Below, piece by piece: positions 19,484-24,076 of a stretch of 53,020 nucleotides of DNA (position 1 is its first letter; every line of letters begins with the position of its first letter). This stretch comes from Promicromonospora sp. MEB111. Lineage in GTDB: Bacteria > Actinomycetota > Actinomycetes > Actinomycetales > Cellulomonadaceae. The stretch covers positions 1 to 53,020 of the forward strand of contig NZ_JARVSD010000017.1 in assembly GCF_030209445.1 (NCBI RefSeq), given 5' to 3'. The notes beneath the pieces are model-generated. The model did no database searches. It worked only from the letters and a program-made list of their open reading frames with translations, and was not told the origin of the DNA. The position numbers and the translations under genes were made by a program.

Positions 19484-19511
19484 GGTGGGTTCCGTGTCTA
19501 GAGAGGGACGT

Positions 19512-20231
19512 GTGACTGCCGCAAGCATCGCCAAGGATCTTCGTGCCGCGATCCGCTCCGGGACCTACAAACCGGGCGATCGTCTCCCGAGCGAAGCAGC
19601 GCTCATGTCGAACTACGGCGTGGCCCGCATGACCGCGCGCCACGGCCTGTCGATGCTCAAGGACGAGGGCCTGACCGTGACCCGGCACGGCTCCGGTGTG
19701 TTCGTGCGCGCCTTCGAGCCGATCGTCCGCGACAGCACGGGTGGCCAGGTCAGCGAGTCCACGGTGACCGCCGAGATCGACGAGACCGGCGCCGGCCTCA
19801 CGGTCCGCACGCTCGCCGTCACGGCGGAGGCCGAGCCCTCCGAGAAGATCCGCGCCACCCTCGGCCTCGCCGAGGGCGACAAGGTGACCGTGCGCGAGCG
19901 CCTCCACCTGCGGGAGCGCAAGCCCGTCCTGTTCGCGACGTCGTACCTGCCCGCGTCGATCGCGGCCGGTACGCCGATCGCGGACCAGGAGGTCGGGCCG
20001 GGCGGCACGCACGCCCGGCTGACCGAGGCGGGGCACGCGCCGGTGCGGTTCCGCGAGGACGTGGTGGGCCGCATGCCGACGATCGAGGAGATCGAGGAGC
20101 TGCGCATCGAGCCCGGCACACCGGTGCTCGCGGTCACGCGCACCGCGTTCACCAAGGACGGGTCGGCCGTCGAGGTGAGCCACGTGGTGCTGGACGCGGG
20201 CGAGTTCATGCTCCGCTACGACATCCCCTAG
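19512..20231 (+). CDS. GntR-family regulator with UTRA effector domain
   Basis: Regulator of 239 residues. The N-terminal winged helix has the HutC-type signature YKPGDRLPSEAALMSNYGVA followed by MTARHGLSMLKDEGLTVTRHGSGVFV. The C-terminal UTRA domain (about 90-235) includes VRERLHLRERKPVLFATSYL and the terminal GEFMLRYD. Such proteins respond to a small metabolite, unknown here. Start choice is uncertain: GTG at 19512 (chosen, with GAGAGG just upstream), 19494 or 19485. The divergent two-gene operon is the likely target. The stop overlaps the end of the convergent NAD kinase-like gene. Confidence 0.82.
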   Translation: MTAASIAKDLRAAIRSGTYKPGDRLPSEAALMSNYGVARMTARHGLSMLKDEGLTVTRHGSGVFVRAFEPIVRDSTGGQVSESTVTAEIDETGAGLTVRTLAVTAEAEPSEKIRATLGLAEGDKVTVRERLHLRERKPVLFATSYLPASIAAGTPIADQEVGPGGTHARLTEAGHAPVRFREDVVGRMPTIEEIEELRIEPGTPVLAVTRTAFTKDGSAVEVSHVVLDAGEFMLRYDIP

Positions 20232-21143
20232 ACGAGCCGGAGCCTCCGCTCAGCCACGCCGATCCGGACCTCCTGCCCCCAGGAGACCTCGAGCCGGTCC
20301 GCCTCCATCCCGTCCCCGAACACGACGAGCCGGTCGGACTGGACGGTCACCACGAGCTCGCCGTCGCCCCCCGAGCACGCCCTCCGTCATCGTGACGCCG
20401 GTGACGGGCGACGGCCAGGCCTCCCGGACGAACCAGGCCAGGGCCGGGTCCGTGGGCCCAGGCAGCCGGCGGCCACCCCGGTCGTGCGCGATCGAGGCGC
20501 ACCAGCCGGTGGCGCCGGTCCCGGTGCTGACGATCAGCCCCGACGACGACTGCCGCTCCGTACCGCCGTCGACCCCCAGCAGGTAGCGCGCCGACTGGTG
20601 GCTGGGGTGCCCCAGGAACAGCTCGTTCACGGCCTGGAGCTCCTGGCCGTCGTCGAGCCGCGCGTGGACCATCGTGAGCTCGTCGTGGAGCAGGGCTGCG
20701 AACGACGCCTCGTTCGCACCGCCCCGCGGCGCGGCCAGGCTGCCGATGATCTCCCCGACGTCGCCGACGTCGTGCCGCACGAGCACCCCGAGGTTGGTGC
20801 CCGGCTCGGGGTCGACGCCGATCACGAGCTGCCGGTCCAGGTACTTGGCCACGTTCGCGACCAGCCCGTCCTGCCCCACCACGAGGACGACGTCCTCGGG
20901 CGCGAAGAGGAACCGGTCCAGGTCCGCGCGCTCCACCTCCGCGAGCGCCCAGTCGGACGGCACGCTCGCCGCGACCACCTTGCGGGCGGTCGCGGCGGCG
21001 TCGTGCCGGGCCTCGACGTCGGCGAGGGTGCGGCCCCGGGTGCGGAGGAAGAACTCCGCCTGGCCGCGGGTCGCGTGCCGGTCGAGCAGCTCGTCGAGCT
21101 CCGTCCGCCGGTGCACCAGCACGGCGCGCGTACGGAGGGCCAT
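20228..21143 (-). pseudogene. NAD kinase-like gene with a +1 frameshift near its 3' end
   Basis: ATP-NAD kinase-fold protein. Seen are GQDG (residues 90-93, in place of the usual GGDG), AVNELFLG (171-178) and STGTGATGW (206-214), the hallmark NAD kinase loop. At codon ~258 a run of six G (C on the plus strand, 20367-20372) shifts the frame. As read, the protein ends at 20250 after an Arg/Gly-rich tail of 297 residues in total. Removing one G restores [20 protein letters not shown] and a natural end at 20228-20230, 304 residues, touching the GntR stop. Either a sequencing error or a recent mutation is possible. The gene starts one base after the SPFH stop, so the two form an operon. GQDG makes normal kinase activity uncertain. 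Confidence 0.75.
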
Positions 21144-21144
21144 G

Positions 21145-22200
21145 TCAGCGCTCCGCGGCCGGCGCGCCGTTCGCCGCGGCGGCGCCGTCCGACGTCGGCT
21201 CCCCCGCCCGGGCGGTCAGCGCGCCCAGGAGTCCGCTCACCAGGTCGGGCGTGACGGTCAGCGAGCCCACGTTCGGCAGGTGCGGCGCGGCGTCGCGCAG
21301 GGCGAGCGCGGTGAGCACGTCGCGTCCCACGTTCGCGTAGACCGCCATGAGCGCGGCCTCCTTGGCGGCCTCGGCCTCACCGAGCCGGCGCAGCGAGGCC
21401 GCCTGGGCGGTCGCCGCGATCTCGCGCCGCTCGGCGTCGGACTTCGCGGACACGAGGGCGGCGGCCGCGGCCTCCTCCGCCTCGCGACGCTTGTTCGCAC
21501 CCTCCTGGGCCACGAGCTGCTCGCGACGGGAGGCGAGCTCGATCTGGCTCGCGAGCTCGTTCTCCGCGATCTTGCGCTCCCGCTCGACGGCGACGGCGCG
21601 GCGCTCGTAGGTCGCGCGGTCGGCCTCGGCCTGGAGCCGCTCGCGCACGGGCGTGCGCAGGGCCTTCTCGACGTCGCCCTCAGGCCGGACGGCGAGCACC
21701 CGGACGCCCAGGATCTCGATACCGGTGGCGGCCAGGCGCGCGTCCTCGCCGAGCGCGCCGAGCGCCGTGCGCACGCGGCCGACGCCGGACTCCAGCGCCT
21801 CCGCGAGGTCCAGCGTGGCGATGAGGTCGACCGTGAGGCTCTGCGCGAGCTGGCCCACGATGGCCCCCACCTGCTGGCGACCGCTCGCCTCCTGCCCCTT
21901 GCCCGTGACGGGGAAGATGCCGAAGTCCAGGCGCTGGGACGCGAGCACCGGGTCGCCGAACCGGTAGGTCACGTTCGACTGCACGCTGACGTCCTGCTGG
22001 TCGCGCGTGACGGCGTGGAACAGGACGGGGAGCTCCTGGTCGGTCGCGGGCACCTCGCTGAGCACGGACGTGTCGGGGCGGAACCAGAACGCCTGGCCCA
22101 CACCTTCGTGCCGCACGGCGCCGTTGCTGAGGTGCACCACGTAGTCGCTCGCGGAGCCCAGGAACTGGCGGATCCCGGGGTAGCGCTTGATCGTCGCCAT
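21145..22200 (-). CDS. SPFH/band-7 domain protein
   Basis: Protein of 351 residues with an SPFH (stomatin/prohibitin/flotillin-type) domain over about residues 20-215, followed by a charged, Glu/Ala/Arg-rich helical stretch (about 215-280) likely to form coiled coil. It has no obvious N-terminal membrane helix, so membrane contact would be peripheral. SPFH proteins form large membrane-associated rings or scaffolds. The gene has AAGGAG upstream of its ATG and is followed at once by the NAD kinase-like gene. It is divergent from an NrtR-type regulator, with two matching operators between them, so NAD(P) status probably controls its expression. Its exact role is unknown. Confidence 0.8.
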
Positions 22201-22223
22201 CGTCGGCCTCTCCTTCGTTGTTG

Positions 22224-22238
22224 TCGTCAGATTGACGA
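22224..22238. promoter_or_regulatory. Candidate NrtR operator 1, TCGTCA-N3-TGACGA
   Basis: A perfect inverted repeat with a 3-base spacer lies 24 bases before the SPFH start, close to its predicted -10 box (TATCGT on the minus strand, 22235-22240). A repressor bound here would block that promoter. Confidence 0.65.
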
Positions 22239-22254
22239 TATCTACCTCCTCCGC

Positions 22255-22283
22255 TTTTCGTCAAGGTGACGAGAATGTACGGT
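22255..22283 (+). promoter_or_regulatory. Leaderless promoter of the NrtR-type gene
   Basis: TTTTCG (22255-22260) and TACGGT (22278-22283) are separated by 17 bases; the -10 box ends 7 bases before the ATG at 22291, with no Shine-Dalgarno sequence. Operator 2 occupies the -35 edge and spacer. Confidence 0.45.
22258..22272. promoter_or_regulatory. Candidate NrtR operator 2, TCGTCA-N3-TGACGA
   Basis: Second perfect copy of the same inverted repeat, with identical arms and a different spacer (AGG instead of GAT). Its centre is 34 bases from that of operator 1, about three helical turns, so both could be bound on one face of the DNA. Confidence 0.65.
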
Positions 22284-22290
22284 CGATGTC

Positions 22291-23067
22291 ATGGCCCGCA
22301 CCGCACCCGTCCCGTCCGCCGTACCCGACTCCGCGGGCGCCTTCCCCGTCACCGTCGACGTCGTGGCGCTCACGGTGCGCGACGGCGCCCTGCAGGCGCT
22401 CGTCGTCGACCGCCTCCTGGAGCCGTACCGCGGCCGGGCGGCGCTGCCGGGCGGGTTCGTGCTGCCGGACGAGACCCTGGAGCAGGCAGCGGGGCGGGAG
22501 CTGGAGGAGGAGACCCGGCTGACCGTGCCGGCCGGGGCGACCGGCACCGGCCCGTGGCACCTGGAACAGCTCCGCACGTACGGCCCCCTCGGCCGTGACC
22601 CGCGCGGCCCGGTGCTCTCCGTCGCCTACCTCCTGCTCGCGCCGGCGTTCGGGCTGCCGGCCGCGGGCGGCGACGCGGCGGAGGCCCGCTGGGTGCCCGT
22701 CGGCGAGCGGAGCGCCGGCCTCGCCTTCGACCACGACGGCATCCTGGCCGACGGCGTGGAGCGGGCCCGCGCGAAGATCGAGTACTCGCCCCTGGCGGCC
22801 GCGTTCTGCCCGCCCGAGTTCACGGTCGCGGAGCTGCGCGGCGTCTACGAGGCGGTGTGGGGCACGCAGCTCGACGCCCGCAACTTCCACCGCAAGGCCA
22901 CGGGCACCCCGGGCTTCCTCGAGCCGACGGGGCGCCTGGGCGGAGGAGGCCCCGGCCGCCCGGCCGAGCTGTTCCGGCTGGCGCCCGGTGTGGACCCGAC
23001 GGCGACCGTGCTGCACCCGCCGCTGCTGCGGCCGGTCAGCCCTGGCCCGGGCGCGCCCTCGGCTTGA
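22291..23067 (+). CDS. nrtR: NrtR-type NUDIX transcriptional regulator
   Basis: Protein of 258 residues: an N-terminal NUDIX domain and a C-terminal NrtR-type winged helix. The NUDIX box GFVLPDETLEQAAGRELEEETRL keeps the catalytic glutamates but has Thr where the last Gly is expected. The C-terminal part (PPEFTVAELRGVYEAVWG, then NFHRKATGTPGFLEPTG) is typical of NrtR, a regulator that in other bacteria senses ADP-ribose and represses NAD synthesis genes. Here it faces an SPFH/NAD kinase-like operon across two identical-arm operators. The last 32 bases overlap the convergent pirin gene. Whether it still hydrolyses a nucleotide is unclear. Confidence 0.83.
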   Translation: MARTAPVPSAVPDSAGAFPVTVDVVALTVRDGALQALVVDRLLEPYRGRAALPGGFVLPDETLEQAAGRELEEETRLTVPAGATGTGPWHLEQLRTYGPLGRDPRGPVLSVAYLLLAPAFGLPAAGGDAAEARWVPVGERSAGLAFDHDGILADGVERARAKIEYSPLAAAFCPPEFTVAELRGVYEAVWGTQLDARNFHRKATGTPGFLEPTGRLGGGGPGRPAELFRLAPGVDPTATVLHPPLLRPVSPGPGAPSA

Positions 23068-24076
23068 GCCGCAGGTCCGGCAGCGCGGGCGCGCGCAGCG
23101 GCCCGCTCGGATATCCGTGCACCCGGCCGAACAGCCGCCCCTCGGCGCCGGCCGCGTACCCGGTCGCGCCGCCGTCGAGCTCGGCGATCTGCGCCATCCA
23201 GCGGTCGCGGGCCCGCACGATGTCCTCGTGCGTGCGGCCCATGAAGTTCCACCACATGATGACGTCCTCGTCGAACGGCAGCCCGCCGATCAGGACCGCC
23301 CGCGCGGGCGCCCCCGCCCCGGCCCGCACCACGAGCGTGGACCGGCCCGGCGCCACGTAGCCGAGGTTCGACGGCGGCACGGCGCTGCCCTCGAACGTCA
23401 CGTCACCGGCGTCCACGAGCAGGGCGTGCTCGTGCTCCGCGTCGACGCCGATCCGCACCTCGGCGCCCGGTTCGAGGTCGATCTGCGCCCCCACGAGCGG
23501 CGTGTAGGTCGTCGCGGTTGACGCCAGCTCCTCCCTCGCCACGGTGAGCCGTCCCAGGAAGACCTGCACGACGGCGCCGTCGGCGCGCACGACCGGGAGG
23601 TCCCCGTGGTGCTCGAAGTGCGGGTCGACACCGAGCGCGGAGCCGGGCAGCGCCGTCCACAGCTGCACGCCGTGCAGCCGGGGCGGACGCACCCCGGCGG
23701 GCGACTCCTCCGAGTGCGAGATGCCCATGCCCGCCGTCATGAGGTTGAGCTCGCCCGGCCGGACCGTCTGCAGCGAGCCCACGGAGTCACGGTGCAGGAT
23801 CTCGCCCTCGAAGAGCCAGCTCACGGTCTGCAGCCCGGTGTGCGGGTGGGGCGGGACCTGCATGCCCTCGCTGCCGGAGACGTCGTCGGGGCCGTAGTGG
23901 TCGCTGAAGCACCACGCCCCCACGAGCGACCGCGCGCGCTGCGGGATGGTGCGCCGCACGTTCATCGCCCGCGGCCCGCCGAGCGGCACGTCGCGCGGCG
24001 TGAGGAGCTCGATGCCGTCGCCTTGCTCACCCGCGACGCAGACCTGCTCGGTCGGCCGGGTCTCGAGGTTGCTCAT
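23036..24076 (-). CDS. Pirin family protein
   Basis: Two-cupin protein of 346 residues. The N-terminal cupin has the pirin metal-site pattern HPHTGLQTVSWLFEGEILH and GISHSEESP, with the metal-binding histidines and glutamate present. The C-terminal half contains LLVDAGDVTFEG, VLIGGLPFDEDVIMWWNF and a C-terminal helix with RDRWMAQIAE. Some pirins act as quercetinases and others as regulators, so the role is open. The ATG is at 24074-24076. The gene is convergent with nrtR and their ends overlap by 32 bases. Confidence 0.85.
   Translation of the reverse strand: MSNLETRPTEQVCVAGEQGDGIELLTPRDVPLGGPRAMNVRRTIPQRARSLVGAWCFSDHYGPDDVSGSEGMQVPPHPHTGLQTVSWLFEGEILHRDSVGSLQTVRPGELNLMTAGMGISHSEESPAGVRPPRLHGVQLWTALPGSALGVDPHFEHHGDLPVVRADGAVVQVFLGRLTVAREELASTATTYTPLVGAQIDLEPGAEVRIGVDAEHEHALLVDAGDVTFEGSAVPPSNLGYVAPGRSTLVVRAGAGAPARAVLIGGLPFDEDVIMWWNFMGRTHEDIVRARDRWMAQIAELDGGATGYAAGAEGRLFGRVHGYPSGPLRAPALPDLRLKPRARPGQG

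Follow-up and report, generated by a model that had tools for sequence, protein, structure and literature searches.

Why should a regulator of the NrtR family face an SPFH protein gene and an NAD kinase-like gene across two identical operators, and what might these genes do together? The arrangement lies in a 53,020-nucleotide stretch of Promicromonospora sp. MEB111 (contig NZ_JARVSD010000017.1, positions 1 to 53,020; hereafter called the window), from a 6.2 Mb genome drafted in 35 contigs. The trio with its paired switch recurs in many actinobacteria, and the gene set without that switch is found in some other bacteria. We propose a self-regulated redox-cofactor module made up of an NrtR-family repressor, an NAD-derived signal, an SPFH oligomer and an NADK2-type kinase, and put the probability of this reading at about 60%.

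A conserved gene trio

The genes are as described in the initial annotation, i.e. a Nudix-winged helix regulator divergent from SPFH and kinase-like genes, with a single base between the SPFH stop and the kinase start. The NrtR-type identity of the regulator was borne out by Pfam NUDIX (56.3 bits, cut-off 21.1) and NrtR_WHD (51.8 bits, cut-off 27), and the SPFH protein matched Band_7 (45.2 bits, cut-off 23.6). In a sample of 150 family genomes, the SPFH gene and the kinase were each found in 50, and together in 49; of the two genomes that break the pairing, G437 reaches its contig end here and G423 has a partial kinase match and no SPFH match. A divergent regulator accompanies all 50 family SPFH loci, in one of them (L091) at a distance of about 830 bases. 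This co-occurrence and the constant regulator rule out a chance neighbourhood, and conservation of the trio across actinobacterial genomes, on which the initial annotation depended, is thus observed.

The kinase is uncommon in the phylum at large, where 12 of 296 sampled genomes have it, and matches to it are present on 62 of 72,556 plasmid records. All three genes, arranged divergently as in the window, are found on a Rhizobium plasmid (neighbourhood taken from one record; 43 Rhizobium plasmid records have a regulator match and 42 a kinase match), and the SPFH-kinase pair is also borne by plasmids of Streptomyces, Kitasatospora and Roseomonas, where no regulator was matched within about 12.9 kb. 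In one other phylum (that of L016), strong kinase matches (26 of 199 genomes) are clearly separate from weak ones (17 of 199). The strong loci, 26 from this phylum and one from the genome of L014, include the SPFH gene in 26 of 27 cases, L146 ending at a contig edge, and in 11 of the 27 the examined flanks contain a regulator, which always shares the orientation of the SPFH gene. Beside the weak, stand-alone kinase relatives neither SPFH nor regulator was found at any of the 11 loci examined (10 of the 19 weak matches in the phylum of L016 and one from the genome of L014).

Paired operators at the SPFH-kinase promoter

Two perfect TCGTCA-N3-TGACGA repeats had been reported in the divergent gap with centres 34 bases apart, and both proved exact. 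A promoter scan of positions 20150-22400 returned TTGACG-18-TATCGT as the sole promoter-like match (shuffles: mean 0.0, standard deviation 0.2), and both repeats overlap this SPFH promoter, one at -35 and one at -10. The overlap with the SPFH promoter claimed initially is therefore real and extends to both sites, while the placement of one site in the spacer of the regulator's own promoter is unconfirmed, since the same scan found no promoter for the regulator gene. The window holds 11 matches to the pattern with up to two mismatches versus 2.7 expected. Three exact copies exist in the whole genome, namely the window pair and a third that falls within an open frame at another locus. If up to one mismatch is tolerated, the genome has 56 sites versus 9 for the reversed pattern, an excess that may reflect composition or a wider set of weaker single sites elsewhere.

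A search that tolerated mismatches recovered the operator pair ahead of the SPFH gene at 48 of the 50 loci of the family and at 10 of the 10 Streptomyces/Kitasatospora-type loci, as compared to none of 12,000 dinucleotide shuffles (L005-L009, which by their gap sequences very probably come from the same genomes as G412, G343, G418, G372 and G322, lie outside the counts of 50). Most pairs, 32 of the 48 from the family and 8 of the 10 of Streptomyces/Kitasatospora type, are spaced by 33 or 34; the remaining spacings are 42-44 and 55-56, plus one each at 22 and 46. A -10-like hexamer (TA...T) follows the TTGACG-like end of the upstream site after 17-18 nt in 57 of 58 pairs. Of the 150 family genomes, 8 contain the exact double pattern, once each and always beside the SPFH gene, with a spacer of 19 bases throughout although 5-34 were allowed, and a looser double pattern matched 6 of 11 genomes, once each, at the SPFH promoter and nowhere else. 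Within the genus of the window, the SPFH gene and the double site coincide, both being present in the same 6 of 13 sampled genomes. Close named relatives, Promicromonospora and Antribacter, keep both exact sites at the same spacing in all five gaps. Chance repeats are ruled out by the shuffles and by the exact pair never occurring away from the SPFH gene, and the paired repeats are conserved in related genomes as the initial annotation had anticipated. The other spacings are about one and two helical turns longer, which raised the idea of cooperative looping governed by helical phase; this is not claimed because promoter geometry accounts equally well for the main spacing.

The link between operator and regulator extends to genomes with a different gene order. 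Seven genomes of one genus carry the SPFH-kinase pair with no regulator match in the examined flanks; we take the genus to be Streptomyces, given that its regulators group with the Streptomyces rows L010, L011 and L028, and its SPFH genes best match the Kitasatospora query. These genomes encode an unlinked regulator paralog whose own promoter has one TCGTC-N5-GACGA site of the same type with one mismatch. In the regulator tree, the unlinked paralogs cluster with the linked regulators and four further rows (Shimodaira-Hasegawa-like approximate likelihood ratio test, SH-aLRT, 87), and a second paralog group, in which a TATAGTC-type palindrome was assigned by eye to 7 of 9 rows, is separate (SH-aLRT 97). 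Predicted palindromic operators are hence present at promoters of the regulator's own gene, in the unlinked paralogs, and of its putative target. Judged by these sequences, operator and regulator stay matched where gene order is broken. Action of the NrtR-family regulator on the SPFH-kinase operon is well supported as a prediction by gene order, by operators that follow regulator phylogeny and by the promoter overlap.

Another NrtR-like paralog of Streptomyces-type genomes (L101, L105, L107, L010, L011) bears a palindrome of the TATAGTC type immediately before its start.

Features of the locus

Table 1. Genes, predicted operators and promoter of the locus, in window coordinates.
Feature	Position	Strand	Remarks
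NrtR-family regulator	22291..23067	+	N-terminal Nudix, C-terminal winged helix; Pfam NUDIX 4.3e-15, NrtR_WHD 9.3e-14
SPFH / Band 7 protein gene	21145..22200	-	Pfam Band_7 1.4e-11; long C-terminal helix, no clear transmembrane segment
NADK2-type kinase-like frame with GQDG	20250..21143	-	profile match 20361-21143, E 2.9e-126; out of frame past ~20371
C-terminal piece of the same kinase, other frame	20231..20371	-	profile match E 4.1e-16
Operator I, TCGTCAAGGTGACGA	22258..22272	.	exact match, conserved; holds SPFH promoter -35 (minus strand)
Operator II, TCGTCAGATTGACGA	22224..22238	.	exact match, conserved; overlaps SPFH promoter -10 (minus strand)
Sigma-70-like promoter of the SPFH-kinase operon	22235..22264	-	TTGACG 22264-22259, 18 nt, TATCGT 22240-22235

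A run of six C (20367-20372) interrupts the kinase frame of the window shortly before its 3' end, and the end point near 20228 of the initial annotation belongs to the second, shifted frame. Intact kinase copies are present in relatives, and of the 50 kinase-bearing family genomes that of the window is the only one with the kinase split between two frames; one more two-piece match (G259) came from the same profile search as the phylum sample of 296. The shift may stem from faulty assembly of this draft genome or may be genuine. A GntR/UTRA regulator gene (19485-20231, plus strand) ends up against the 3' end of the kinase gene, and a pirin-family frame (23036-24076, minus strand) ends within the 3' end of the regulator gene in a convergent overlap of 32 bases.

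Proposed mechanism

In the proposed module, the NrtR-family repressor would bind the two 15-bp palindromes, which span the -35 and reach the -10 element of the SPFH-kinase promoter, and in its bound state would shut off the operon and probably its own gene as well. Repression by covering -35 and part of -10 seems the simplest reading because of the distance kept between upstream site and -10-like hexamer, and because the window promoter was the sole match. An NAD-derived ligand, most likely ADP-ribose by analogy with NrtR biochemistry, would fill the Nudix pocket and release the repressor. The operon would then yield an SPFH oligomer and, coupled to it, the NADK2-type kinase, whose fold and residues are taken from prediction and alignment and which might turn NAD(H) into NADP(H) on or beside the oligomer.

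Several observations weigh against this module, in addition to those discussed with the alternatives below. The kinase profile sees two pieces in different frames in the window, one family genome (G423) has a partial kinase match without an SPFH match, and a single TGA interrupts the SPFH frame in two family genomes (G434 C44, G426 C1; L083, L085). The operator pair was found in one of six more distant loci and not in the other five, among them L032, which keeps the divergent trio. By eye, and as an impression rather than a statistic, TTAGTGT/TAAGTGT- and ACACTA-type elements are visible in the promoter region of the non-actinobacterial L016, L032, L154 and L155 instead of TCGTCA-N3-TGACGA. 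Of the 22 regulator relatives fetched first, 15 have neither SPFH nor kinase in their flanks, so that the regulator family is wider than the trio.

The SPFH protein belongs to the same list. Its AlphaFold2 model (predicted local distance difference test score 69.8) resembles HflK/HflC, stomatin, erlin, prohibitin and flotillin in Foldseek searches, while a clear transmembrane segment was not seen in 8 SPFH proteins (highest 19-residue Kyte-Doolittle mean 1.16-1.61), nor was an N-terminal hydrophobic anchor of the stomatin/HflK type, the N-terminal part reaching at most 1.37 in the same 8. Because of this, a soluble or peripherally bound oligomer would be likelier than a classical anchored scaffold, and the membrane scaffold assumed in the initial annotation is unproven. 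The constant gene pair suggests that the kinase may dock on this oligomer.

A kinase related to mitochondrial NADK2

The initial annotation regarded the kinase-like protein as a modified NAD kinase with GQDG in place of GGDG. The motif was read correctly and a model of the intact kinase from L008 has the NAD kinase fold; what did not hold is the derivation from ordinary NadK, as the protein falls in the mitochondrial NADK2-type branch. Sequence, fold and tree all relate this bacterial protein to mitochondrial NADK2, which is its nearest solved structure in both profile and fold searches. Human mitochondrial NADK2 and plant NADK3 both belong to the "mito clade"; the SSG and TGTGS...W features are shared with NADK2, which differs in keeping GGDG and in carrying an insertion, and the bacterial kinases, unlike NADK2/NADK3, are genetically tied to an SPFH gene. 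The window's frame matched no Pfam family at E 0.01 and the NCBIfam NAD kinase models only weakly. Foldseek ranked NADK2 first four times, with Pseudomonas aeruginosa NADK close behind (9e-17 vs 1.4e-16), a closeness that counts against the proposed module. Profile ranks cross over between NADK2-like and canonical groups, the canonical profile finding human cytosolic NADK at 7e-36 and NADK2 at 4e-7, and the profile of a stand-alone bacterial group finding them at 3.9e-12 and 1.5e-29, respectively; VIA fold ranks also favour NADK2. In the kinase tree, which includes an NADK2 fragment and no cytosolic eukaryotic NADK, SPFH-linked kinases and canonical NadK/PpnK, the latter with GGDG, lie on opposite sides of a 100/100 branch. 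The stand-alone group just mentioned is a second bacterial NADK2-like group (L135, L136, L156-L164) with GGDG in 10 of 11 members and GGDN in one, no SPFH or regulator gene nearby, and an even closer profile match to human NADK2 than that of the SPFH-linked kinases.

Several features point away from an enzyme that makes NADP(H) from NAD(H). GGDG is replaced by GQDG in 48 and by GPDG in 4 of 52 pattern-recognised copies (duplicates included), so phosphate-donor binding may differ or be lost; in region II, Asp is changed to Ser and Tyr to Trp; Pfam NAD_kinase was not reached in five relatives (best 15.4 bits, gathering cut-off 25.5); and a canonical NadK is already encoded elsewhere in the window's genome. 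The protein might thus be no NAD kinase in the cell, instead binding or phosphorylating another nucleotide (e.g. ADP-ribose or a nucleoside) or serving as an inactive sensor subunit of the SPFH oligomer. We consider this an alternative to be taken seriously though rather unlikely, as the catalytic Asp, the NE/D Asn and the region II Thr are kept in the alignment, and as the SSG and TGTGS...W features are shared with human NADK2, described in PMC8553519 as an active NAD kinase. For Streptomyces coelicolor, a proteomic paper states that just one gene carries the annotation polyphosphate/ATP NAD kinase (PMC8981147), and a nadK pair is counted in PMC6675116.

Regulator and ligand

The redox-cofactor module further requires that the regulator senses ADP-ribose or NAD, which would follow by analogy with characterised NrtR proteins. 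The NCBIfam equivalog "ADPR responsive transcriptional repressor NtrR" was matched with 91.6 bits at a cut-off of 400, and the regulator is therefore a relative and not that equivalog. Its Nudix box reads RELEEET and is largely kept in most of the boxes listed; the Nudix motif of MsNrtR is less conserved, and hydrolase activity was not found for it (PMC6800001). The nearest solved relative of the regulator profile is BtAraR (4e-64), followed by SoNrtR (9.5e-53). Sequence does not fix the ligand, because the BtAraR ligand residues are largely common to SoNrtR, so that ADP-ribose and arabinose are not told apart (PMC4666351), another point that the module has to bear.

A sugar or another compound could accordingly take the place of ADP-ribose, as in BtAraR, with the operon serving in envelope or carbon stress. 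Besides the rank of BtAraR, a match of Pfam AraR_C to the regulator, the variety of ligands described for the NrtR family (PMC4666351, PMC6800001) and the sugar transporter genes and LacI regulator that adjoin the Rhizobium trio would agree with this. We nevertheless regard it as improbable: NrtR_WHD scores above AraR_C, the constant partner gene belongs to the NAD kinase family, and the other three annotated neighbourhoods have no sugar genes beside the pair.

Least convincing is a stress or defence module answering NAD breakdown (e.g. by phage-triggered NADases), in which ADP-ribose would induce the operon so that NADP(H) is restored or membranes are protected: its patchy presence (12 of 296 phylum genomes, 50 of 150 family genomes) and the kinase matches on plasmids would suit it, but PADLOC families gave no match to kinase or SPFH and hit the regulator weakly (16.5 bits), in its Nudix portion, no kinase match was found in 50,697 phage records, and the four neighbourhoods contain no defence-annotated gene. 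A known defence system was rejected on the same PADLOC result, and a phage origin on the phage records together with a close-relative search that returned no SPFH relative in viral contigs.

Comparison with known systems

Much of the proposed redox-cofactor module has counterparts in described systems. SoNrtR and MsNrtR likewise combine Nudix and winged helix domains with a palindromic operator and autoregulation, and in M. smegmatis the MsNrtR target operon lies on the opposite strand with the site in between (PMC6800001). The targets reported there are NAD biosynthesis genes, unlike the SPFH-kinase operon, and the MsNrtR palindrome is GTTTTCGA-N7-TCGAAAAC as opposed to TCGTCA-N3-TGACGA (PMC6800001). 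A promoter with two tandem sites has been described for BtAraR, which, in contrast to the regulation proposed here, answers L-arabinose and controls arabinose genes (PMC4666351). HflK/HflC, stomatin, erlin and prohibitin share the SPFH core and the long C-terminal helix; FtsH or NfeD-family proteins figure as partners in titles of solved complexes, whereas the constant partner gene here encodes a kinase and no clear transmembrane segment is apparent.

The initial annotation knew of no described role for the trio, and no published description of a module of SPFH, NAD kinase and Nudix/NrtR was found in full-text searches either, with a mention in the founding NrtR paper (Rodionov 2008b) being possible. 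Plasmid annotations call the kinase "hypothetical protein" or "sugar kinase", with "ATP-NAD kinase PpnK-type protein" in one record. The parts are of known kinds; no account of the module, of its paired operator or of the kinase being of NADK2 type came up in these searches.

Implications

A wider reading, which we regard as doubtful, would see in these loci a widespread bacterial NADP(H)-making body, i.e. an NADK2-like kinase on a soluble SPFH cage that is switched on by a product of NAD breakdown, and would regard this body as the prokaryotic equivalent of the eukaryotic "mito clade", whose NAD kinases are poorly rooted. Mitochondria, where the "mito clade" NAD kinases work, are also rich in SPFH cages, the prohibitins. 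The 2019 phylogeny of Vickman and Erives reported no consistent prokaryotic sister clade for eukaryotic NAD kinases and placed the eukaryotic cytosolic and mitochondrial clades as sisters, which disfavours a separate bacterial root for NADK2 and tells against the wider reading (PMC6675116). Unlike the published phylogeny, our profile ranks put NADK2 nearer to the bacterial NADK2-like groups than human cytosolic NADK lies to them.

With a conserved trio and a paired operator, a vague annotation becomes a testable pathway, with the questions of which enzyme makes NADP(H), at what place and in response to which signal. The SPFH protein gains a metabolic partner, and bacterial relatives of human NADK2 are brought to light.

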